Assembly (NCBI GenBank): GCA_031267825.1
Contig: JAIRYJ010000003.1
Coordinates: 1-63,919, forward strand
Reading direction: 5' to 3'
Origin: Bifidobacteriaceae bacterium
GTDB lineage: Bacteria > Actinomycetota > Actinomycetes > Actinomycetales > WQXJ01
DNA: 63,919 nucleotides
In this document: positions 33,244 through 47,128 of the stretch, one piece after another
Layout: every line of letters begins with the position of its first letter
Numbering within the stretch: position 1 is the first letter of the stretch
Program-made: the position numbers and the translations under genes
Notes under the pieces: model-generated
Told to the model about the DNA's origin: nothing
The model's database searches: none
What the model saw: only the letters and a program-made list of their open reading frames with translations

Positions 33244-35067
33244 GTGGTTCCGGCAACACCCAGCTTGATAGATGGGCCATCTGGGCTCACGGCCGAGGCG
33301 TCAGACGATGCCGTCCTGGCCGCCATCAAACTAATCCGCCAAGCTGAAGGCACCGTCTACGCCTATGACCTGATCCCGGTTCTGTGGGGGTCAACACCAG
33401 ATGATGCCCCCGGCATAACCCGGTACGAGACCCAGATTCTGGCGACAATCAACCGCTGGGGAGCGGAACTGATATTGCCGGACACCACCCGCGTAACTCA
33501 CCGGCCCGGGATGAGCGAATACGTCACCAATATCGCTCTACGGCCAGTGATTGACGCCCTGGTGTTTGAGGACGCCTCCGAGTTCCGAATCCACCCGACC
33601 GCGATTAGCGCTGCTGATCAGGCCGATGGCCAGGTTCAACTTTGGCGCAAGATGGATCCCGCCAGGCTGGCTGAACTACGCGAACTTGGCCCCGGCCAGG
33701 CCGAGGAACGGCTGCTAGCGGCCAAGGACCGCTTCCTGACGGTGGCCGGAGAGCCCCTCAACCTGAACAAACCAACCGATCAGCGGATCGCGGATTCAGT
33801 CATCTGGCCGGAACCCGGCAGCCCACTGGTCCTCAACTTGTCTGACTGCTACTTCGAGGATTTCGATCTGGCTAGAGTGCTCGGTCTGCTCGGCTCGCGG
33901 GCGGTGTCTTGCTATGAGGGAGGTGGTTTGGCGATTGACGCCTGCCGGGCGGTTTTCTCCGGTCAGCGCACATCCTTCAGCCCCCCGCCAGGAAGCAAAG
34001 TGACGATGCCGAGGGCAGAGCTTGAGGGAGCGGTCTTTGATTCGCCTGAAGTGTGTTTTGACCATCTGGAGTTCGCGGCGGGAGCGGCCGACCGCCGCCG
34101 GACGCAAACCAGTCTTCTGAACTTGAGGGATTCCACCTTTACGGCCAGGGTGGGCCGGGCCAGCTTCGAGCAGTGCAAGTTCACTGGTGGTGGGCTGTCT
34201 TTGGAAGACGCCTCGGTTGTGGGCTGCCAGATTAGTTTCGACAACACCCAGTTCGTTGCCTGTCATCTGTTTTTCTACCAGCTAATCGCCGGTGAACAAT
34301 CCAAGTTCACTTTTGTGGGCAGCCGCTTCGAAGAGTCGGTGGTGGACTTTTCTGATTCGTCCGTGCCGAGCTTGCTGTTCTACGACGTCCGCGACATGCC
34401 GCAGTGTGATTTCACATTCCGCCGGTGTGGCGCCCTGGCCATGGAGAACTGTTCTTTAGGTAATCCGATCAAACTGGCCTCGGTGCGGCGGCTTTCTTTG
34501 GCCGGCAGTCATTTGAGTGGTGTTTTGTTGCACATCCGGGACGGCTCCGGTGGCAGTCGACGGTCCAACCGGAGGGCGCGCAAGAACTGGTTCTTGGACG
34601 CATTGGAAGATGGCGAACGGTCCTCCTTAGCTGACGAACTGGCAGCGGTCAAAGAAGTTTTCCACGGCATGGGTGAATATGAACTGGAAGATGAAGCATT
34701 CATCCGCCACATGCGGCGGGTCCCCCGCTCCAAAGCCATGTGGCTGGTGGTCCGGTTACTTGACGCCTTGGGTCGCTTCGGAACATCTCCTTCCCGGGTG
34801 GCGGTCTGTTTGGCTTTGACGGTGGTGTTGTTTTTCTTTGTCAACGCCGGCCTGCTGGCACTGGTGCCGGATGGTTTCGTGGGTCTTCTGGGCGGTTCGG
34901 TCTGGGCCGATTCAGCCCTTTTGACCTGGGCTTCTTTTGTTCAGGCAGGGACGATAGTTGAACCCATTTCGGCTTGGACGATTGGCGTCAGCTTGTTCCA
35001 AACCACGGCGGGCTGGTTCTTCTTGGGATACTTCTTTGTTGCCTTTACCCGCAAGACCTTGAGATAA
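33244..35067 (+). CDS. Beta-helix (pentapeptide-like) protein with C-terminal membrane pair
   Basis: 607 residues. The N-terminal 190 residues are a mixed domain I do not recognise. About 195-430 has repeated short strands with aromatic/Cys positions (FEDFDLA, FEQCKFTGGGLSLEDA, FVGSRFEESVVDFSDS), consistent with a right-handed beta-helix like divergent pentapeptide-repeat proteins. A charged helical region follows, then two transmembrane helices (about 520-545 and 575-600) ending FFLGYFFVAFTRKTLR, which resembles the inner helix of small ion channels appended to pentapeptide proteins. GTG start. A motif copy at 33303 encodes SDDAV. Confidence 0.65.
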   Translation: MVPATPSLIDGPSGLTAEASDDAVLAAIKLIRQAEGTVYAYDLIPVLWGSTPDDAPGITRYETQILATINRWGAELILPDTTRVTHRPGMSEYVTNIALRPVIDALVFEDASEFRIHPTAISAADQADGQVQLWRKMDPARLAELRELGPGQAEERLLAAKDRFLTVAGEPLNLNKPTDQRIADSVIWPEPGSPLVLNLSDCYFEDFDLARVLGLLGSRAVSCYEGGGLAIDACRAVFSGQRTSFSPPPGSKVTMPRAELEGAVFDSPEVCFDHLEFAAGAADRRRTQTSLLNLRDSTFTARVGRASFEQCKFTGGGLSLEDASVVGCQISFDNTQFVACHLFFYQLIAGEQSKFTFVGSRFEESVVDFSDSSVPSLLFYDVRDMPQCDFTFRRCGALAMENCSLGNPIKLASVRRLSLAGSHLSGVLLHIRDGSGGSRRSNRRARKNWFLDALEDGERSSLADELAAVKEVFHGMGEYELEDEAFIRHMRRVPRSKAMWLVVRLLDALGRFGTSPSRVAVCLALTVVLFFFVNAGLLALVPDGFVGLLGGSVWADSALLTWASFVQAGTIVEPISAWTIGVSLFQTTAGWFFLGYFFVAFTRKTLR

Positions 35068-35805: not shown

Positions 35806-36756
35806 GTGTTGGAGCCCGAATCAGGTACTGAGTTGCGGCAGGCGGCGGTGCGAGCGGCCGCCGAACTGATGGGGGTCACGCCGGAACGAATCGAAGGACT
35901 GACCCGCATGCCAGGCGGCATGAGCAACACATCATTCAGCTTTCTGCTGGAAGGCTGGGCCTATGTGGTGCGCCTGCCGGGGCCTGGCGCCGAACACCTG
36001 ATTGACCGTGACAACGAGTGGGCGGCCTACCGGGCCTTGGCCGGATCAGGCCTGACAGATGAGATCGTGGCGATTGACCAGCATGGTCGGCGTGTGACGG
36101 TGTTCTATGAAGGTGCCCGGACGGCTGATCCCGCCAGCCAGGCTGACCTGGCCGTGGCGATGGGTTTGGCTCGCCGGTTGCATGAATCGCGTGTTCCATT
36201 ACGCCACCGGTTCGATTTTGAACGCCAGGTCAGACGATACGAAAGGATCTGCCGGGCGACAGGCCCGGCGCCTTATCCTGACCTGGAACGCCAGCGCTTG
36301 CGCACAGTTGAACTACTTGACTTGCGCCGCCGCCTCGGCGTTGAGGAGGTCTTTAGCCATTGTGATCTGGCCTGTGACAATGTGCTGATTCTGGCGGACG
36401 GTTCGGCCAGGTTGATTGATTGGGAGTATTCGGCTTTGGCTGACCCGATCATGGACGTGGCGATGTACTGCATCTATTCCTTCATGGAGCGTGACCAGAT
36501 CGATTCGGCTTTAGGTCAATACCTTGGTCGCCAACCTCGGGCCGGTGAACTGGCCAGGCTTTACCTTTACGTCGCCTTGGAGGGTTACCTCTGGGCGCTG
36601 TGGGCCCATCACAAGGCGCGGTGCGGTCAGAGTCTTGGTGACTATGGCCGACGGACGTACCAATACGCGCCAGAGTATTACGGCATTCTGATGCGGAGCG
36701 GCCTAGTCGCCGAAGCTCTCGAACAGGTCCGGTCAGGCGGCGGAGGCGGCCGCTAG
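35806..36756 (+). CDS. licA: LicA-type choline/ethanolamine kinase
   Basis: 316-residue aminoglycoside-phosphotransferase-fold kinase. The N lobe has MPGGMSNTSFSFLLEGWAYV; the catalytic loop is FSHCDLACDNVLI (expected HxD) and the metal site LIDWEYSALADPIMDVAM, typical of LicA and bacterial choline kinases. It would phosphorylate choline for phosphocholine decoration of surface polymers. GTG 35806 follows AAGGGAGG. It reads into the LicB-like gene on the same strand. A second LicA paralog lies at 44.0 kb; the two share the DWEYS-x3-DPIMDVAM block. Confidence 0.87.
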   Translation: MLEPESGTELRQAAVRAAAELMGVTPERIEGLTRMPGGMSNTSFSFLLEGWAYVVRLPGPGAEHLIDRDNEWAAYRALAGSGLTDEIVAIDQHGRRVTVFYEGARTADPASQADLAVAMGLARRLHESRVPLRHRFDFERQVRRYERICRATGPAPYPDLERQRLRTVELLDLRRRLGVEEVFSHCDLACDNVLILADGSARLIDWEYSALADPIMDVAMYCIYSFMERDQIDSALGQYLGRQPRAGELARLYLYVALEGYLWALWAHHKARCGQSLGDYGRRTYQYAPEYYGILMRSGLVAEALEQVRSGGGGGR

Positions 36757-37077: not shown

Positions 37078-38529
37078 ATGAGCAGTGTCGCAGTACCAGT
37101 CATGGACCTAGCCCGGCTCCAATCCAGGCGCTTCTTCGCCAAAGGCATCACAATAGCCATAGTCTCCGGACTGCTTTACGCCCTGTACAGCGCCTTCATC
37201 ATCGGTGCGGAAGGCACCGGAATCTGGGCCGACTGGTTCGGCGAACAATCCGGCCTGGCCGTCTTTGTTCAGGTTTACGTCCTCGGCATGCTGGCCTGCG
37301 GCCTGAACGATTCACTATCAGCCATCTGGGCGCTAGGACTGGTCGGCCTGAGGGGCAAACTAGTTGACCTGTGGCGCTCAATCCGATCCAAGCCTGGCAT
37401 GGTGATGGTCATCTGCGCCATCATCGGCGGCCCAGTAGCCAACGGAGCCTACCTGATCGCCCTCAAACTAGCTGGCCCGTCCGCCGCGCCAATCACCGCG
37501 CTATGCCCGGTGGTAGGCGCTGTGATCGGCCGGGTGGTGTTCAAACAAGCCATCAACGGGCGGATGGCGGCCGGCATCGCGATCTGCTTGACGGCATCGC
37601 TCATGATCGGCTCAACCTCCCTCGAAGCCGACGCCCCACCAACCATGCTGGCTGGACTGCTAATCGCCCTGGTCGCGGCCGTTGGCTGGGGCATTGAAGG
37701 AGCCGTCGCGGGCTACGGCACTGTGCTGATCGACTACCAGATCGGTATCACAATCCGTCAGCTAACCTCCGGCCTGCTCAGCCTGGGCCTGTTCGTCCCA
37801 GTGTTGTGCCTGATGGCGGGCGGTGACGGGCTGTATGGTCAGGTCCTCGGCGGAGCCTTGAGCGATCCGCGCTCACTTGGTCTATTCGCGATCTCGGCGC
37901 TGTTCTGCTTCTTGTCATTCGGCCTGTGGTATCGCGGCAACTCGATGTGCGGCACCGCACTGGGCATGGCTTGCAACGGTTCCTACAGTTTCTGGACGCC
38001 ACTGTTCTGCTGGCTGGTCCTGGGGATCGGCTTCGGCTGGGCCGATCAAGCCGTGGCGCCGATCGTTTGGTTGGCCGCACCAGTCATGTTTGTTGGCTTG
38101 GTGCTGGTGGCGGTCAACCCGCTTGAGTTGTTTGGCCGGCCCGCCAGCCTGTTCCGGGACGTTGAAATAGTGCCGCAGCCGTCGGGGCAGGACATCCAAG
38201 AAGAGCCACAACCCCTGACGGGCAGGATTCTGCCGCTCAACTACGCGGTTTTGCGGCGGGTCGCGGAGCAGGGTACGGCCGATGCCGACGGGTTGATGAA
38301 CGCTCTGGCGGCAAGTTACGGTGAACGCCGTGTCTTCCGCCGGGAACTGATCGGCGAGGCTTTAGCCGCGGCTGAGAAGAACGGTGTTTTGGAAGTGTCC
38401 GGCATTGGTTTGAACAGTGATGGCCAGGTGGCGATCCACTACAAGACAACGCCAACTGGGCAGACCATGATTGAACGGTTCATTGGCCTTAGCGCCAGCC
38501 TGGCTGCTTGGCCGGGGGCTGGCGCCTGA
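37078..38529 (+). CDS. licB: LicB-type choline transporter with cytoplasmic C-terminal domain
   Basis: 483 residues. The first 350 form a ten-helix drug/metabolite-transporter (EamA-like) protein; the segment FGLWYRGNSMCGTALGMACN and position between licA-like genes point to LicB-type choline uptake. Residues about 365-470 are a soluble domain (ILPLNYAVLRRVAEQGTADA, RRVFRRELIGEALAAAEKNG) that looks like a winged helix, not found in Haemophilus LicB. Substrate assignment rests mainly on context; another quaternary amine is possible. Confidence 0.78.
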   Translation: MSSVAVPVMDLARLQSRRFFAKGITIAIVSGLLYALYSAFIIGAEGTGIWADWFGEQSGLAVFVQVYVLGMLACGLNDSLSAIWALGLVGLRGKLVDLWRSIRSKPGMVMVICAIIGGPVANGAYLIALKLAGPSAAPITALCPVVGAVIGRVVFKQAINGRMAAGIAICLTASLMIGSTSLEADAPPTMLAGLLIALVAAVGWGIEGAVAGYGTVLIDYQIGITIRQLTSGLLSLGLFVPVLCLMAGGDGLYGQVLGGALSDPRSLGLFAISALFCFLSFGLWYRGNSMCGTALGMACNGSYSFWTPLFCWLVLGIGFGWADQAVAPIVWLAAPVMFVGLVLVAVNPLELFGRPASLFRDVEIVPQPSGQDIQEEPQPLTGRILPLNYAVLRRVAEQGTADADGLMNALAASYGERRVFRRELIGEALAAAEKNGVLEVSGIGLNSDGQVAIHYKTTPTGQTMIERFIGLSASLAAWPGAGA

Positions 38530-38668: not shown

Positions 38669-41600
38669 CTAACCGGCGAACAACACTGGGGTGACCGCGA
38701 TCAGGTGCCAGTTCTCGAAATCGCGGGCATCGCCAATCACCTCATAATGCTCAATGTTTTCGCCTTCAGCGGGCTGGCCGCGGCGGAAATAGTATTGCCG
38801 TGGCGTCTGGTCATCATCAGGAACCTGGAACACAGTCCGGACGTGTGCCGGATCCTTGGCGTGGGCATCAGCCAGGAAAGTCGCCCGGACGTTGGCAACG
38901 TCAATCGGCGCCAACGAGTGCCGCATCGGTGTGCCCTCAGCTCCGGCTGGTTTGACAAACAACGCTGTCAGGCGCGGAACGTTCAGACCATCCCGGTCAG
39001 CGTTCGATGTCCACTGACCGTGATCGGCCGATATGACAATAGTGGCGTCCCTATATAGGCCGAGGCGCTTGAGTTCAGCGATGTATTCGAACACCATGCG
39101 GAAAGCGCCGCGGGCTTGTTCTACCAGTGGCTGCGAATCTGGTTCGATCGGTTTGACATTGCGGTCAATTGTTGCGGGGTTGTGGGCGCCATCAAGATGA
39201 ACATAGCTGAAGCGTGGCTTGTCACCTCTGATGTGTAAGCCTTGAGTTTTCAGCTTGTTATAGAAAGCGACGTTCCTGGTAACGAACGGTTCACCGCCGC
39301 CTTGCAAGGCGATCGCCCCTTCACGGAATAGTGAATTCGCCCGCCAGAAGGTTGGTTTAGCGATATGGGGAGCGTATCTGAAAGCGCTTAGCAGGGTCAT
39401 GCCTTTTAGCACGTTGCGGTCTGTTGTTACCATTTTGGTTCGCAGAACGTTATCGGCCAGACCGGCGATATCGTCAATTGAGCCGTAAGAATACCGGGTA
39501 GTCGCGTAGATGTTAGTTGAATAGCCGGCTTCCCGCAGCTCAGGTAAGAATGTGCCATCACGGTAGGCCTGGGTGTAATACTCCGATAACGGGTGATCAA
39601 ACATGAACAGCTCACCGGTTACCATGTCAACCGCGCTTGGTAGTGTCCGGCTGTGATTGGAGATGTAATTGTCGAACTCGGTGAAACCGTCTAGTTGAGA
39701 AGCGAAGAAATCTGGTTCCTCAGTGGTGATCTGGTTAACGAATTTCTGATCCATCATGTCCAGAATGAACATGAATTGGTTAGGCCCGGCGGACGGTTCG
39801 TATAAGCCATCGTAGGTCGGGTAGAGCTGGACGGTGTCCTGTGGCGGTAATCCTCCGGGTGGGAGCGCCGCGACCAGGCCGATTGAACCTGAAGCGATCA
39901 GGGCGGTTGGAAGAACCCAGGCCATCGCGGTCCAAATCTTCCGCGAGATGATCCTGATTAGCAGGGGCAATAGCCCAACAGCAAGCCAGATGGCTGAGTT
40001 GGTGACAGCTAGGCGGGCGAAGCGTCCCCACTGGATGGCTTGGCCGTTGAGGGTACCCAAGTAGCCGTCCAAGAAGCTGCCTTGAACCCAGGCGGCCAAG
40101 GTCAGACCCAAAACCAGTGATACAGCGACGTCGAAAACCCGTCCCCGTAGCAGGTAGAGGACCAGTGTCAGGATCGCTCCGGTGACGCCCCAGACGGCCA
40201 GTGCGATGATCAGCAACTGGCGGGCGCCGAAGGGGAACTCGGCGATGTTTTGGAGAAACAAGTCGAGGAACCCGAAGAAGAAGAATAGGAAACCGGGAGC
40301 GAATCCGGCGGTGCCAGCTATGGCGAAGCGGAGCGGTCGGCCGCGCTTGTCAGACCACAGGAAGGCGGTCTTGGAAACCGCTAGGTCAGGATGTTCCAGA
40401 TTGACTGGCGCTGACTGTTCAGTTGTTTGGCCGCGCCGTTCCCGGGCGGCCGCGAGAGCGGCCTCCAGCTTGTCTGGGCTGGGCCCGTCACTCGTCGCCA
40501 ATGTGGTAACGCTCTGACTGGTCACGGCGCTAGCCGCCAGGTTAGCTGGGCTACCAGAAGCCGGACTCATGCCAGCGCCCACACCAAGACCCGCCACAGC
40601 GGCGCTGGCCGCGTCCGTTGTGGCGGTAGCGGCCGTGCCCGCACCAGCGCTCACCCCGGCGGCCGCACCCAGATCCGCACCAGCGCTCACCCTGGCGCCA
40701 GATTCTGGGCCGACCGTCTCCGTCCGGCGCGTCCGGCGCGTCCTGGGTCGCCGGAATGCCCAGTGTCGGGGTGAGGTGGCCACCACAAACCAAGCCATCA
40801 GCCGTGCCCTGATAGTCATCAAAGCCAGCAAGATGCGTCGGAAGAAGACACCAACCGCAACTGACAGGGTTATCACCAGACCAGCCACAATCTGAATCAA
40901 GTAGCTGGTGGTAGCTGGATCGATATATGCCTGGGCTGGTTCGGGTGCGGCCAGCACCGCCACCGCGGCCACAAAAGCACCAGCTCCGAGCAGCTCGACT
41001 GGGCGGTTCTGGCGTGAGCGGCCAGGTCCGGGATCATCTTGACGGGCGTCGCGTTGGCGGGTTGTGGCCTCAAGTAGGTAAGCCGCCATGGTGACCTCAG
41101 AATGACCAATGTTGTAGATGTTGTCTTGTAGGACCTGTTCGATCCGTTCGCGCCAAACGCTGGTCTGGCGCATCAGATCTAGAGCCACGTCCCCAATTCC
41201 TGCCAACGCGTCAACGTCAATCGAAACGCCAATCATGTCACGCAATGTGATGTCAAGTGGCGGCGAACAAAGCCATTCCCAATTCGGGTTCATTACCTTC
41301 ATCGGTGTGTTGATGAAGATTGATGGCTTCTTGGTGGCATAGGAGAATTCTTGAGCGATCGACGACCAATCAGTTATTACTAAGTCAGCCGAATAGACGG
41401 TGCTATTGGAGGAGAAATCGGTCTGTAATTCAAGACGCCCGGCCTCGATTTCTGGAGCCAATAGTTTAGCCAGTGAAGCGATCTTAGCGCCGAAGCGTTT
41501 AACGAACTCTGGGTGCGGCCGGACTATTACATGGAAACCGGCTTCAAGCAGAGGGGTGACAGTCTCTGGTAGGCACAGTTCGATTAGGTTATCGACCTGC

Positions 41601-43117
41601 CAGCTTGGCGCGACCAATGCGATTGGTGGATCGTTAACTTGGCTGGTATCCAGTCCGGCGACTGATTCAAGCAGATCATCAAGTAGTCCGTAACCAGTCT
41701 TGACTAGCCGTTTGGGTGGTAGTTCATAGACCGCTTCGGCCAGACGGATCTCGTCAATGTGGTTCGGGCCGTAGCAGAAAATAGTGTCGAAGTGGTCCAA
41801 GGCGTTTTCGCGCAGCATCAGATGGAAGCTGGTCATGCCGTGGTCCAGGTAAATGTATTCGGCGTCTTTACGCACCAAGGACCGTTTGATGTGGAAGGTT
41901 TCTAAGTCTGGTGTTGTCATCGCCACCACGTCCACGTCCAGTTTCATCATGAATGAAATGAGGCCGCGCTGCCCAATGTAGTAGGTCTTGAGGCGTTCGT
42001 GTTCCCGGCTGAAGATCTTGTCTTGCGGGTCAGATGTGACGTAGTGGATCGTCAGGCTGGTGTGGGCTAGGAGGTATTCGACCAGCCGCCGGTAGTACTT
42101 CCAGTAGCCGGAGCTTTCGGCGTAGATCATCAGGGCTTTGTCTGGTGTGGCGAAGAATCGTCTGGAATCGCGCCGTTGGCGCCGCTGGTTGGTTCGCTTG
42201 GTCTGGCGTCGTTGGCGGCGTTGCTCAGCGGTCAGCCGGACGGGTTTGGGCATGGCGGAGAAGTTGATGAACTTCTCCGGGCGGTAGAACACGTTGCAAA
42301 GCCAAACCGTGGCGATCGATAGCAAGTTACCGGCGGTCCAGTAAAGGCCCAGCCCACAAGGCAAAACCAAAGCGAAGTAACCGGAGAAGGCGACCATGAA
42401 GACGGTCATGGAGTTGTTCGCCAGGTGACTTTGGAAACGGTTCAGGACGTAGTAGCGGTTCTGGTAGACGCACAACGCCAAGGCGCTGATAGCTGACAGA
42501 ATCGGCCAAATGATGGTCAGTGAATCCCAGGCAGGCACTTCAGCTAGGTTCATACCCCACAAACTGAGGTCAACTGTTTGGATCTGGGCGACCGCCGCTT
42601 CGCTGGACAACCCGGGTGACCCAGCGAAGGCTTCGGGCGAAGCTTGGACTTGTTCCATGACGCGTAGCTGAGCCCCGTAGCCGAGTTCCTGCGGTGTGGT
42701 GTCCAACAGTTCAGCGGTGCGCATGATTAACCCGTTGATGGTGGCCGCTGGCAGGCGCAGAAGATGCTGCAATGGTTTGTAGATGACGTTGATCAGACCC
42801 AGGATCAGCGGGATTTGGATCAGTAACGGCAGCATGCCCTTGAGTGCCGAATAGTGTTCCCGTTTGTTCAGGGCGCGCTGTTCGGCCATGACTTTGGCAC
42901 TGTCGCCATCGTGGCGACGCCGGATGTCTTCAGCTAAAGGCTTGATCCGGGCCATTGTGACGGCGTTCTTTTGGGCCAGCATAGACAGTGGGAAGAGGAT
43001 CACCTTGGTGGCCAAGGTGAACAGGATGATCGCCGGACCGTAGTAGGGGGCCAGGGCGTAGCACCAGTCGAGCAGGTAGCCCAATGGCACGCCAAATAAG
43101 GTATTAAAGACTTCCAT
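38669..43117 (-). CDS. YidC - TagF-like polymerase - LtaS-like phosphotransferase fusion
   Basis: One open frame of 1482 residues. Residues 1-285: YidC/Oxa1 insertase fold with five membrane segments; the hydrophilic-groove charge is Lys38 (TLATKVILFPL). 290-320: very basic linker. 325-690: CDP-glycerol glycerophosphotransferase (TagF/TarL) domain with LDHGMTSFH (His426), VRPHPEF (His535) and ITDWSSIAQEF. About 705-765: two hydrophobic segments around AQAYIDPATTSYLIQI. 790-900: Ala/Gly/Ser linker. 930-1090: about five membrane helices. 1110-1400: alkaline-phosphatase-superfamily domain like LtaS/EptA (candidate nucleophile Thr1158 in SRTLPS, metal ligands Asp1365-His1366 in SADHG, His1307/His1312). 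It would join polymer synthesis on the inner face with transfer on the outer face of the membrane. Confidence 0.87.
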   Translation of the reverse strand: MEVFNTLFGVPLGYLLDWCYALAPYYGPAIILFTLATKVILFPLSMLAQKNAVTMARIKPLAEDIRRRHDGDSAKVMAEQRALNKREHYSALKGMLPLLIQIPLILGLINVIYKPLQHLLRLPAATINGLIMRTAELLDTTPQELGYGAQLRVMEQVQASPEAFAGSPGLSSEAAVAQIQTVDLSLWGMNLAEVPAWDSLTIIWPILSAISALALCVYQNRYYVLNRFQSHLANNSMTVFMVAFSGYFALVLPCGLGLYWTAGNLLSIATVWLCNVFYRPEKFINFSAMPKPVRLTAEQRRQRRQTKRTNQRRQRRDSRRFFATPDKALMIYAESSGYWKYYRRLVEYLLAHTSLTIHYVTSDPQDKIFSREHERLKTYYIGQRGLISFMMKLDVDVVAMTTPDLETFHIKRSLVRKDAEYIYLDHGMTSFHLMLRENALDHFDTIFCYGPNHIDEIRLAEAVYELPPKRLVKTGYGLLDDLLESVAGLDTSQVNDPPIALVAPSWQVDNLIELCLPETVTPLLEAGFHVIVRPHPEFVKRFGAKIASLAKLLAPEIEAGRLELQTDFSSNSTVYSADLVITDWSSIAQEFSYATKKPSIFINTPMKVMNPNWEWLCSPPLDITLRDMIGVSIDVDALAGIGDVALDLMRQTSVWRERIEQVLQDNIYNIGHSEVTMAAYLLEATTRQRDARQDDPGPGRSRQNRPVELLGAGAFVAAVAVLAAPEPAQAYIDPATTSYLIQIVAGLVITLSVAVGVFFRRILLALMTIRARLMAWFVVATSPRHWAFRRPRTRRTRRTETVGPESGARVSAGADLGAAAGVSAGAGTAATATTDAASAAVAGLGVGAGMSPASGSPANLAASAVTSQSVTTLATSDGPSPDKLEAALAAARERRGQTTEQSAPVNLEHPDLAVSKTAFLWSDKRGRPLRFAIAGTAGFAPGFLFFFFGFLDLFLQNIAEFPFGARQLLIIALAVWGVTGAILTLVLYLLRGRVFDVAVSLVLGLTLAAWVQGSFLDGYLGTLNGQAIQWGRFARLAVTNSAIWLAVGLLPLLIRIISRKIWTAMAWVLPTALIASGSIGLVAALPPGGLPPQDTVQLYPTYDGLYEPSAGPNQFMFILDMMDQKFVNQITTEEPDFFASQLDGFTEFDNYISNHSRTLPSAVDMVTGELFMFDHPLSEYYTQAYRDGTFLPELREAGYSTNIYATTRYSYGSIDDIAGLADNVLRTKMVTTDRNVLKGMTLLSAFRYAPHIAKPTFWRANSLFREGAIALQGGGEPFVTRNVAFYNKLKTQGLHIRGDKPRFSYVHLDGAHNPATIDRNVKPIEPDSQPLVEQARGAFRMVFEYIAELKRLGLYRDATIVISADHGQWTSNADRDGLNVPRLTALFVKPAGAEGTPMRHSLAPIDVANVRATFLADAHAKDPAHVRTVFQVPDDDQTPRQYYFRRGQPAEGENIEHYEVIGDARDFENWHLIAVTPVLFAG

Positions 43118-44010: not shown

Positions 44011-45159
44011 ATGAACAGCGGACCGGTTGGTGCTCCAACGATGACAGACAGTGCGGCCAGCCCAGCGCCAAGTGATACGGCGGGCACCAGCGACAGCCCG
44101 GTGGCACTAGACATAACGGGCAGTAAAGACAGGTCCGCGGCAGCGGGCGGCCCGGTGACACTAGACACAACCTGTGGTGAGGTTAGGTCCGCGGCAGCGG
44201 ACAGCCAGGCGGCAGGCACCAGCGACAGCCTGGCGTTGGACTACAGTGCGCCAATCCGGGCGATTGACGAACTGCTCGGGATTAGCCAGTCCGAAGTCCG
44301 TCAACTCAGGCCTCTGACCGCTGGGATGACCAACACGTCCTTCACCTTCCAAGCCGGGCAGCAAGTCTATGTGGTGCGGTTACCTGGTGTTGGCACGGAA
44401 CAGCTAATCGACCGCGAAGCCGAACGCCAGATCTACCTGGCGTTAGCTGACACCGGTATCACCGACGAGCTCTTGGCGATGGATAACACCGGACGCCGTG
44501 TGGCGGTGTTCTACTCCGACGCCAGACAAGCCGACCCGCTGGACGATTCCGACCTGGCGGCCTCGATGCGGATCGTCCGGAACGTCCACCAGATGGAACT
44601 GCCACTAGAACGGCGATTCAACATTGACGGGATGATCACACAGTATGAAGAACTGTGTTCAACAGTCGCCCCGATTTCCTACCCGGGTATCGCCGAATCG
44701 CGCCAGCGGGTGGCTGAACTACAGCGTTTCCGTGACGTGCTGGCAGTACCGGAGGTCTACTGCCACGGCGATTCGGCGCCAACCAACGTGCTGATCTTAG
44801 GTAACGGTGACGTCAAACTGATCGATTGGGAGTATTCCGGGCGGTCTGACCCGATCATGGACGTGGCGATGTACGGCATTTTCTCCTACTTTGACCAAGT
44901 CCGCCTTGACTTGTCACTACAGCTATACCTCGATCGTGAACCAACCGCCAATGAGACCGCCCGGCTCTACCTCTATGCCGCTCTGAGTGGATTCCTCTGG
45001 TCATTGTGGGCCCACTACAAAGAACAAATGGGTCAAGATTTCGGGTCTTACGGGTTGGATCAGTACAGCTACCTGCCGCGGTATTACTCCCAGCTAGCAT
45101 CAGGTGACCTGATGGCACGGGCGGCCCAGACCGCTGGCAACGCGGGAGCGGCCAACTAG
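44011..45159 (+). CDS. Second LicA-type choline kinase with repetitive N-terminal extension
   Basis: 382 residues. The kinase part begins near residue 80: LTAGMTNTSFTFQAGQQVYV, Brenner motif VYCHGDSAPTNVLIL (canonical HGD, unlike the HCD of the 35.8 kb copy) and LIDWEYSGRSDPIMDVAM. The first 75 residues are Ser/Ala/Thr-rich and made of repeated DNA (AGGTCCGCGGCAGCGG twice, GGCACCAGCGACAGCC twice); they are probably disordered. GGAAGTGAAG precedes the ATG. It is convergent with the LicC fusion gene. Confidence 0.85.
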   Translation: MNSGPVGAPTMTDSAASPAPSDTAGTSDSPVALDITGSKDRSAAAGGPVTLDTTCGEVRSAAADSQAAGTSDSLALDYSAPIRAIDELLGISQSEVRQLRPLTAGMTNTSFTFQAGQQVYVVRLPGVGTEQLIDREAERQIYLALADTGITDELLAMDNTGRRVAVFYSDARQADPLDDSDLAASMRIVRNVHQMELPLERRFNIDGMITQYEELCSTVAPISYPGIAESRQRVAELQRFRDVLAVPEVYCHGDSAPTNVLILGNGDVKLIDWEYSGRSDPIMDVAMYGIFSYFDQVRLDLSLQLYLDREPTANETARLYLYAALSGFLWSLWAHYKEQMGQDFGSYGLDQYSYLPRYYSQLASGDLMARAAQTAGNAGAAN

Positions 45160-45283: not shown

Positions 45284-47128
45284 CTACAAACCCAGGGCGG
45301 CCCTGGCGTGCTGCTTCGCCCGCCGGTAAGTCAACAAAGGATACTCACCTAACTGTTCACCCAAAGCCTGGCGGTATTCGGCCCACAAAGTGTTAGCCAA
45401 CGCCACCAGCGCCGCTTGAGTGTGGAAACGGACCCACTCGTCGCGGGCCGGGAGCCGCCCGGTGTAAAGCGTCAAGGCGGCGGCCGCCGCGTCACTGTCA
45501 AGACCAGCCGCCAAAACAAACGACGCCACGTCCGTCAACGGGTCGCGCTGGCCCGCTAATTCCCAATCGATCAGGCGGATGGAGCCGTCCGGTAAGACCA
45601 AGACGTTCGATGCCGTGTAGTCGCCATGCGTTGGAACAGTCGGCGCCCCAGCGTTAGCTGGTAAAGCAGCAGCCCGCCTGACCAGCGCGTCAACCTCAGG
45701 GTAGTCGGCGAACTGGATGGCTTGACGTGACTGCGCCAGGCGCCGCAAGCGGTCCAAATCGGCCGTCAACGGCGGCTCAGCCGAAAACACCAAACCACTG
45801 TGATGGACCTGGGCTATGGTTTCCAAAGCGGCCCGCAGCTCGTCCGGGTTGGACGGATCAAGCGGCCGGGCGCCAGTCAAGAAGCGCGTAATACGGTGAC
45901 CATCGGCCGGATCAATCCAAACCAGTTCATCGGTTAGGCCAAGCGGCGCCAACGTGGCGTAAGCCGACCGCTCAGCGGCGTAATCAACCCATTCGGCGGC
46001 ACCGGGTTGTGGCCGGCGGAAAACAAACCGATCAACTTCCGTCCGCCCGGTGCGGAACTGGAAAGAGGCGTTCATCAGGCCGTTCTTGAGCGGTTCAATA
46101 CCACTGATACGGCTTTGCGGGATGTCCAAGACTTGGGCGATCTGCCGCATGATGGCGCTGTGAGCGTCAGCCTGATAAGAAGTGTCAAACTGGCGTAGCT
46201 CAGCTAAGTTCTCAAACTCGTGAAGATTGAACTGGTCCAATAGCCGCAGGTAAATCGGTAACCGTTTAAGGTTGTGCCATAGCACATGTTCGAAGTACCA
46301 GTCCTCGGTTCCGGGTGTGGCATAAGCCCGCTCCAGCAGCGGAACAAATTCGGCGGCGAAGTCAGCACTGAAAAAAGACGGCCCCAACAGCACTGGCGTG
46401 TCCGCCCCACCAATTGTGATGCCTTTGATCCGGCCCTTAGGCCCAAGCTGGGTGGTCCACTCTGAGGTTGGTCCCGCGGCGTAAAGCCCACCCATCCAAG
46501 AGTCAGGTTCGTAACGGTTGAACGGGTTGGTTTCGAGCCAGTTGTCCGCCACTAGGACATAGGACTGGGCTAGCCGGTCACGCACACAGTAAAGCGAAGT
46601 GAGGTTGTTCTTGGTGGCGAACTCCGGGTTGAAGACCAGTTCAACGCCGTACTTGTCGGTCAGATATTCGAACCGTTCTTTGAGATAACCGACAACCAAA
46701 GTGATCCGTGGCACGCCAGCGGCCTGGAGTTGGCGGATCAGCCGTTCAGTCATCGGCTCGCCGCGGACTAAAAGCAAGCCTTTAGGTGTTTCAAAAGTCA
46801 GTGGAACAGCCCGTGACCCGAAACCGGCCGCTAGGACAATCGCGCCAGCGACCTTGAACGGTTCCAGATAGTCACGCCCAGCTTGGGTCAGCTCTAGTTG
46901 TGGTGTGGTCAGGTAGCCGAGTACGGCGGCCTGTCTGATCAGTTGGTTGGCTTTGCCGAGCGAGACGCCCAACTCGGCGGCGATGGCTCGCTGGGTTAGG
47001 GTCACCGGTCCGGCTTGGGCTAGAGCACGGCAAGTCAACGCGACCAAGTTCACGCCCAGCACTCTAGCGGTCTTCTGCCTGATGCCGGTCCGGAAGATGG
47101 GAATATATCGGGCGTACGTGGTGTTCAA
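45284..47128 (-). CDS. HTH - LicC cytidylyltransferase - LicA kinase fusion
   Basis: 614 residues. 1-70: winged helix (RAIAAELGVSLGKANQLIRQ). 73-310: nucleotidyltransferase domain with signature IVLAAGFGSRAVPLTFETPK, VFNPEFATKNNLTSLYCV and VADNWLE, matching LicC, the CTP:phosphocholine cytidylyltransferase. 320-614: LicA-type kinase with PTHGDYTASNVLVL and LIDWELAGQRDPLTDVAS. One chain could thus phosphorylate choline and activate it to CDP-choline; the HTH may regulate the locus. It is divergent from the exported-protein operon (54 bp between). Confidence 0.88.
   Translation of the reverse strand: MNTTYARYIPIFRTGIRQKTARVLGVNLVALTCRALAQAGPVTLTQRAIAAELGVSLGKANQLIRQAAVLGYLTTPQLELTQAGRDYLEPFKVAGAIVLAAGFGSRAVPLTFETPKGLLLVRGEPMTERLIRQLQAAGVPRITLVVGYLKERFEYLTDKYGVELVFNPEFATKNNLTSLYCVRDRLAQSYVLVADNWLETNPFNRYEPDSWMGGLYAAGPTSEWTTQLGPKGRIKGITIGGADTPVLLGPSFFSADFAAEFVPLLERAYATPGTEDWYFEHVLWHNLKRLPIYLRLLDQFNLHEFENLAELRQFDTSYQADAHSAIMRQIAQVLDIPQSRISGIEPLKNGLMNASFQFRTGRTEVDRFVFRRPQPGAAEWVDYAAERSAYATLAPLGLTDELVWIDPADGHRITRFLTGARPLDPSNPDELRAALETIAQVHHSGLVFSAEPPLTADLDRLRRLAQSRQAIQFADYPEVDALVRRAAALPANAGAPTVPTHGDYTASNVLVLPDGSIRLIDWELAGQRDPLTDVASFVLAAGLDSDAAAAALTLYTGRLPARDEWVRFHTQAALVALANTLWAEYRQALGEQLGEYPLLTYRRAKQHARAALGL

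Follow-up and report, generated by a model that had tools for sequence, protein, structure and literature searches.

We describe a gene in a 63,919-nucleotide stretch of DNA from a Bifidobacteriaceae bacterium (hereafter the window; contig JAIRYJ010000003.1 of assembly GCA_031267825.1), whose product joins a YidC/Oxa1-type domain, a TagF-type transferase domain, a hydrophobic hairpin and an LtaS-type transferase in one chain, and which lies among choline-activation genes. The reading that we favour, with a confidence only somewhat short of even, is that this fusion acts as a load-flip-transfer relay by which phosphocholine reaches the cell surface with no need of LicD. Within it, the choice of donor, a headgroup activated by cytidine monophosphate (CMP), is fairly supported.

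The gene is an ATG-initiated frame of 1482 codons without interruption on the minus strand (38669-43117); the plus strand across the same positions contains many stop codons. An uninterrupted frame of this length had been claimed, with no strand, in a first-pass annotation of this DNA, and it is borne out here. The parts of the product, in amino acid (aa) numbering of the whole chain, are as follows:

38669..43117, minus strand: complete gene, encoding the 1482-aa fusion of YidC, TagF-type, hairpin and LtaS-type parts
42263..43117, minus strand: YidC/Oxa1-type domain, aa 1-285, with Lys38 (groove position), Gln101 and Trp260
41042..42154, minus strand: TagF-type GT-B domain, aa 322-692, with Asp425-His426, RPH535P and D583WS
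40793..41002, minus strand: signal-peptide-like helix ending at AQA730, and YIDPATTSYL hairpin helix, aa 706-775
40478..40756, minus strand: Ala-rich linker, aa 788-880, of low confidence (disordered) in the model
39866..40339, minus strand: five predicted membrane helices, aa 927-1084, from the model
38684..39790, minus strand: alkaline-phosphatase-superfamily, LtaS-type catalytic domain, aa 1110-1478, with Asp1120, Thr1158, His1307, His1312, Asp1365 and His1366

Profile searches, residue conservation and structural models confirm the three domain identities and catalytic-type residues proposed in the first-pass annotation, and the five-helix membrane part that it described is likewise predicted in the model. 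The Pfam families to which the parts had been assigned were recovered in full in a relative and incompletely in the window itself: the YidC part is well above its thresholds (PF02096, residues 26-275, 102.2 bits, cut-off 35; TIGR03592, 99.4 bits, cut-off 84.3), PF04464 (residues 440-602) scores 19.8 bits in hmmscan, just below the cut-off of 22.1, and 22.8 bits in a six-frame search, and PF00884 (residues 1143-1370) remains just below its cut-off of 25 at 21.7 bits. The relative P0003 (1515 aa; alignment spanning 100% of the query) exceeds all three cut-offs; that of PF04464 is passed by P0003-P0005, P0007, P0009 and P0011, and that of PF00884 by P0002, P0003, P0010, P0011 and L020. Custom profiles for the YidC, TagF, hairpin and LtaS-like parts gave 397, 566, 80 and 689 bits with the window, which is among the profile members, and 401, 568, 78 and 627 bits with P0003, which is outside the profile set.

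In the aligned YidC parts, Lys38 occupies the place of YidC R366 (Lys in 63/65, Arg in 2/65), and Gln101 and Trp260 are each present in 65/65. His426, Arg533-Pro-His535-Pro and Asp583-Trp-Ser of the TagF part are conserved in all 65, as are, in the LtaS part, Thr1158 in 33/34 (Ser in one) and Asp1365-His1366 in 34/34; by analogy, this Thr would be the nucleophile and the Asp-His pair metal ligands. The YidC R366K variant is active (PMC8920935; here and below, papers given by PMC number are cited from the available parts of their text). The TagF-type part displays a GT-B fold with the invariant His and the DWS motif, and UDP-GlcNAc 2-epimerases tie with TarL in the fold comparison, so the donor is not fixed by the fold. 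Against solved sequences, the TagF-region profile hit neither TagF nor TarL at E <= 1, and a longer profile reached TarL at E 0.008; for the YidC-TagF model, Foldseek placed a capsule multienzyme and generic GT-B enzymes at the top. LtaS was the best solved relative of the LtaS-like part by sequence; a sulfatase identity was set aside on sequence and on the Thr, despite a fold score equal to or above that of LtaS. The hairpin had no match in Pfam or NCBIfam (two examples scanned in each).

The model is consistent with an orientation in which the TagF part would be cytosolic, the chain would pass out through the first helix and back through the hairpin helix, and the Ala-rich linker and five helices would lead to a catalytic domain outside. 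The hairpin-LtaS proteins of relatives usually begin with a hydrophobic stretch that stops directly before Tyr-Ile-Asp-Pro, where a loose -3/-1 rule is obeyed in 24/28 (in three only via a terminal Cys), the remaining four fitting one residue earlier. The window fusion retains this signal-peptide site of the separate LtaS-like proteins (AQA730/Y731, in AQA/YIDPATT), and may therefore mature into two chains by a signal peptidase cut after AQA730. A canonical second yidC is present in the same genome, next to rnpA as the first-pass annotation had thought worth checking, in the order dnaA-rpmH-rnpA-yidD-yidC (genes named by eye from translations); it carries Arg in the helix corresponding to the Lys38 helix of the fusion, whose YidC part is thus an extra copy.

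A profile scan of genome contigs from 84,980 species yielded 437 relatives, and the locus counts given here refer to the best 80 of these, spanning Bifidobacteriaceae, Propionibacteriaceae, Coriobacteriales, many Clostridia, Erysipelotrichaceae, one Treponema and one Chloroflexi metagenome-assembled genome (MAG). YidC and TagF lie within one open reading frame (ORF) at 80/80 loci (two cut by contig ends; the set was ranked by a query containing both), and the LtaS-like part shares this frame at 0/80; the earlier view that the three are normally separate proteins holds for the LtaS-like part and fails for the other two. An LtaS-like match of at least 90 bits occurs at 56/80 loci and a hairpin match of at least 35 bits at 62/80. 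In the window's kin, and likewise in Clostridiaceae and Coriobacteriales, a second ORF usually holds both the hairpin and the LtaS-like part, often overlapping in a different frame; the hairpin has a small ORF to itself at many loci of Ruminococcus and Lachnospiraceae, and separate LtaS-like proteins usually bear their own signal peptide. All three enzyme parts are united in one chain in the window, in P0003 and in P0011 (a Lachnospiraceae MAG; hairpin not detected), and P0010 is a permuted chain in the order LtaS-YidC-TagF, so the architecture recognized in the first-pass annotation does recur in other genomes. Further, P0002 (a Bifidobacteriaceae MAG, 56% identical), which is partial, runs from TagF through the hairpin to the LtaS part in one frame, and P0007 and P0009 carry YidC-TagF plus a choline kinase in one chain. 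As the parts are joined in differing orders, they evidently cooperate.

The single-chain triple is rare. In genomes of the same genus other than the window's, the YidC-TagF frames reported measure 506-792 aa and include no triple. P0003 is fused at 53% identity over YidC-TagF, whereas L018-L021, four Bifidobacteriaceae MAGs at 66-70% identity, lack the fused frame, and the simplest reading would be at least two separate fusion events. The YidC-TagF family itself is large, with at least 1276 protein clusters matching the profile at E <= 1e-50; among the matches listed, 118/120 YidC-TagF clusters contain both Pfam domains, and the source names, where given, are mostly "YidC insertase". In viral contigs, 182 pattern matches included none encoding a relative. 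Many clostridial loci have a small YIDPATT-type membrane protein beside YidC-TagF, with no annotation in the examples scanned (L095 10929-11114, L054 12109-12336, L047 9992-10282), and two or three tandem LtaS-like genes adjoin YidC-TagF at L063 12435-17499, L086 3174-8914 and L089 15188-18881.

With regard to the donor, loci were compared by their choline genes (LicA of at least 70 bits) or aminoethylphosphonate (AEP) genes (phosphoenolpyruvate (PEP) mutase, decarboxylase or transaminase of at least 250 bits). Position 425, adjoining the invariant His426, is the sole column, among 647 that are gap-free in the labelled rows (21 choline-linked, 9 AEP-linked), with no residue common to both groups: choline-linked rows have Asp (19), Glu (1) or Cys (1), and AEP-linked rows Phe (5), Pro, Met, Asn or Ser (1 each). 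No label shuffle yielded any fully separating column (0/2000), and positions 429 and 431 are also within the ten most divergent. All nine AEP-linked rows fall in one tree part of 30 rows, and since the five choline-linked rows there keep E, D, D, C and D, the match at residue 425 is not merely the inheritance of one clade. In the unlabelled rows for which genome data exist, Asp425 went with a LicC of at least 120 bits in 5/9, and other residues did so in 0/6 (one-sided Fisher 0.042; threshold set afterwards). We read the TagF-type active site as one that may be tuned to the headgroup.

The gene content of the genomes also bears on the donor. Choline genes stand beside YidC-TagF at 23/80 loci, AEP genes at 10/80 and both at none in the DNA examined (chance of zero overlap 0.026, kinship ignored). 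The window's genome, which is 94.6% complete, has no match to LicD (PF04991), none to TagD, which supplies CDP-glycerol, and only one IspD-type match of full length, which is taken as IspD, so that a second one as a possible TarI for CDP-ribitol supply was not found. LicD was not found in 28/42 relatives' genomes, nor in 14/20 LicA-linked YidC-TagF loci, each from its own genome; of the 15 genomes comprising the window's and these 14, 14 have one long IspD-type match, and G014 has two more. TagD exceeded its cut-off in 2/43 genomes, neither LicA-linked. A LicC-like match of at least 80 bits occurs in 30/43 genomes, and of the 13 others seven carry either a strong PEP mutase or an AEP transaminase at the locus, and six carry neither. 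Of ten genomes in the window's genus, the six with YidC-TagF are also the six with LicC (6/6 vs 0/4; Fisher 0.0048); one of this genus, G008, has two YidC-TagF and two LicC, one pair each on contigs G008:C387 and G008:C80. In the window's genome the best match to the PEP mutase family PF13714 covers part of the model at 60.9 bits; it exceeds the family cut-off, falls far short of the values in ten other genomes (141-193 bits), and is probably a different superfamily member.

The neighbouring genes relevant to choline are the following:

35806..36756, plus strand: LicA-like kinase 1 (PF01633, 47.9 bits, cut-off 29)
37078..38529, plus strand: LicB-like transporter with C-terminal extra domain (PF00892, 19 bits, below cut-off; best solved relative LicB 7b0k, E 1.3e-8)
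44011..45159, plus strand: LicA-like kinase 2 (PF01633, 74.1 bits; solved choline kinase 4r77, E 4e-29)
45284..47128, minus strand: fusion of winged-helix, LicC-like cytidylyltransferase and LicA-like kinase (solved CTP:phosphocholine cytidylyltransferase 1jyk, E 1.8e-43)

The choline setting noticed in the first-pass annotation is upheld, the best solved relatives of three neighbours being choline kinase, LicB and CTP:phosphocholine cytidylyltransferase. GntI, the best NCBIfam match for the kinases (85.3, 75.9 and 72.5 bits), was rejected as their identity, being far under the cut-off of 357. The LicC-LicA fusion has an N-terminal winged-helix segment (PF24409 and PF12802, weak), and may bind DNA as well as activate choline. 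In three relatives, the C-terminal extra segment of the LicB-like protein is encoded on its own, by an ORF of 88-91 aa next to a LicB-like ORF of 360-367 aa (L026 6785-8158, L038 14960-16341, L070 6662-8007).

LtaS- and EptA-type transferases draw their group from a lipid at the outer face. Here the CMP-activated headgroup would arise inside, so that something must load it and something must flip it, and the conserved fusion offers a likely CMP-releasing transferase together with a membrane fold that can scramble lipids in liposomes. CDP-choline, CMP-AEP and CDP-glycerol are alike in their chemistry: CMP leaves, and the headgroup is transferred with its phosphorus. From the parts observed, their conservation and association, the co-occurrence with headgroup genes and residue 425, we infer a donor, a lipid acceptor, a flipping step, a final acceptor and a cleavage, as follows. 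The LicB-, LicA- and LicC-like neighbours would supply CDP-choline, from which, in the best supported step, the cytosolic TagF-type domain would load the headgroup onto a membrane lipid, freeing CMP; in some relatives CMP-AEP might be the donor instead, CDP-glycerol being the classical one for TagF. The YidC-type groove with Lys38 would then pass the charged headgroup to the outer leaflet, and the outward LtaS-type enzyme would take it through Thr1158 and pass it to an acceptor on the surface. All steps would, in the window, be on one chain, possibly cut by signal peptidase after AQA730. Related activities are documented: CMP-AEP is the CMP-activated headgroup in Pnt phosphonate tailoring (PMC6697681), phosphocholine transfer from phosphatidylcholine has been described with PptA (PMC10434233), and Escherichia coli YidC, Oxa1 and Get1 scramble lipids in liposomes, with simulations that include Bacillus subtilis MisCB (PMC10491306). 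More broadly, and with greater doubt, the family could be an unrecognised, widespread class of LicD-free surface-decorating machines, in which a TagF-type domain loads phosphocholine or AEP on a lipid, a YidC/Oxa1 fold has been recruited as headgroup flippase and an LtaS/EptA-type partner transfers, the window having all of these in one polypeptide.

Several observations weigh against the relay. The label shuffling at residue 425 ignores kinship, and thresholds were chosen after the data were seen; L085 is choline-linked and has Cys425, and L039 has Asp425 in a genome with PEP mutase and no strong LicC. LicD was found in 6/20 LicA-linked genomes, strong PEP mutase lies elsewhere in 4/20 (G019, G036, G049 and G050), and weaker TagD-type matches, below the cut-off, occur in 12 more genomes, 6 of them LicA-linked (6/20). 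Neither choline nor AEP genes accompany 47/80 loci (many contigs are short), and the LtaS-like match of at least 90 bits is missing at 24/80. The Streptococcus pneumoniae LicC specificity residues Asp105 and Asp192 correspond to Val and Glu in the window LicC by hand alignment, so choline is not settled. Moreover, the genome has two additional TagF-type genes (G000:C25 ~85385-88937; L108 9386-12938), which have a class A penicillin-binding protein and two family-2 glycosyltransferases as neighbours; the donor of these two TagF-type genes likewise lacks an explanation, and a CDP-polyol enzyme may therefore have been missed. This pair has Asn or Met preceding His-Gly and is too distant to serve as a control for residue 425.

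The conserved groove residues suit an ordinary insertase equally well, and this bears on a rather unlikely alternative, in which the TagF-type domain transfers phosphocholine or AEP, YidC is a mere membrane anchor or an insertase for the hairpin and LtaS-type partners, and a different flippase moves the product. The match of the groove residues to those of working insertases (PMC8920935), the hairpin ORF at 62 of the 80 loci (at least 35 bits) and the pneumococcal MOP flippase TacF, which moves phosphocholine-loaded chains (PMC13385700), all speak for it; a mere anchor, however, need not retain Lys38, Gln101 and Trp260 (63, 65 and 65 of 65). We consider it improbable that TagF polymerises a teichoic-acid-like polyol phosphate chain, with YidC aiding membrane passage of the chain or of proteins, the LtaS-type part adding or transferring units outside and choline as a decoration. 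Such a chain was the product suggested in the first-pass annotation, and that suggestion fares poorly: the genome lacks a TagD match and a TarI candidate, LicD for the decorating was not found in it, relatives carry AEP genes in place of choline genes, and residue 425 tracks the choline or AEP linkage. The fold tie of UDP-GlcNAc 2-epimerases with TarL also takes from this reading the support of a fixed donor.

A last explanation, an assembly or sequencing error that merged two neighbouring genes into the single frame, would account for the absence of triples among the 80 loci and among same-genus frames, and in close relatives the two ORFs do lie in different frames or are parted by a stop. 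We regard it as very improbable, since P0002 has TagF, hairpin and LtaS in one frame and P0003 is a full triple chain. In addition, codons 677-716 of the fusion frame contain no start codon, so a split gene would require a different start. GC content at third codon positions is 0.52-0.80 along the whole gene; at second positions it is unusual in the linker (0.68-0.83, codons 781-900), and this evidence leaves room for a frame slip within the linker.

Elsewhere in the window, small secreted-looking proteins cluster around a signal-peptidase-type gene (PF10502; 47183-52364, plus strand), a set which we presume to resemble SipW/TasA-like ones, and a 607-aa protein with a weak pentapeptide-repeat match and a hydrophobic C-terminus is encoded upstream of the choline genes (33244-35067, plus strand).

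If the relay is true, it would explain phosphocholine display in LicA-LicC bacteria without LicD, provide a candidate transferase for CMP-AEP, and give the Oxa1/YidC fold a physiological lipid-moving role beyond protein insertion; residue 425 could moreover allow the choice of headgroup to be read from sequence. No description of a YidC-TagF(-LtaS) system was found in the open-access literature searched; neither YidC nor TagF is mentioned in the available main text of the papers on the phosphonate and phosphocholine pathways (PMC6697681, PMC10434233), and choline, teichoic and YidC are likewise absent from the available text of the taxon paper (PMC11707648).

Compared with known systems, the window shares with the lic1 pathway the import, phosphorylation and CDP activation of choline by LicB-, LicA- and LicC-like proteins, but has the YidC-TagF and LtaS-type system in the place of LicD, which was not found in its genome. 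Pnt tailoring (PEP mutase, PntC, CMP-AEP; PMC6697681) likewise uses a CMP-activated headgroup, and AEP genes occur at 10/80 YidC-TagF loci; the window, in contrast, has choline genes, and the available text of that paper names LicD-like phosphotransferases or glycosyltransferases rather than YidC or TagF. With the TagF/TarL polymerases (PF04464) the domain shares the GT-B fold, the invariant His and the Asp-Trp-Ser motif, whereas it is distant in sequence, fused behind YidC and without a TagD or TarI candidate. The YidC part has the fold of YidC/Oxa1 insertases, a positive groove residue and Trp at the place of Tyr517, but differs by Lys for the usual Arg (63/65), by being an extra copy besides the canonical yidC and by its fusion to a transferase. 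Lipid scrambling by the Oxa1 family (PMC10491306) similarly shows a YidC fold moving lipid headgroups in liposomes; it is known there as an in vitro and simulated activity, while a dedicated role is only proposed for the window protein. Finally, as in LtaS/EptA/YejM-type phosphotransferases, five predicted membrane helices precede a catalytic domain with a conserved Thr, but here a YIDPATT signal/hairpin segment comes before them and the whole is attached to YidC-TagF. The parts and the goal are already known, and their combination appears to be new.
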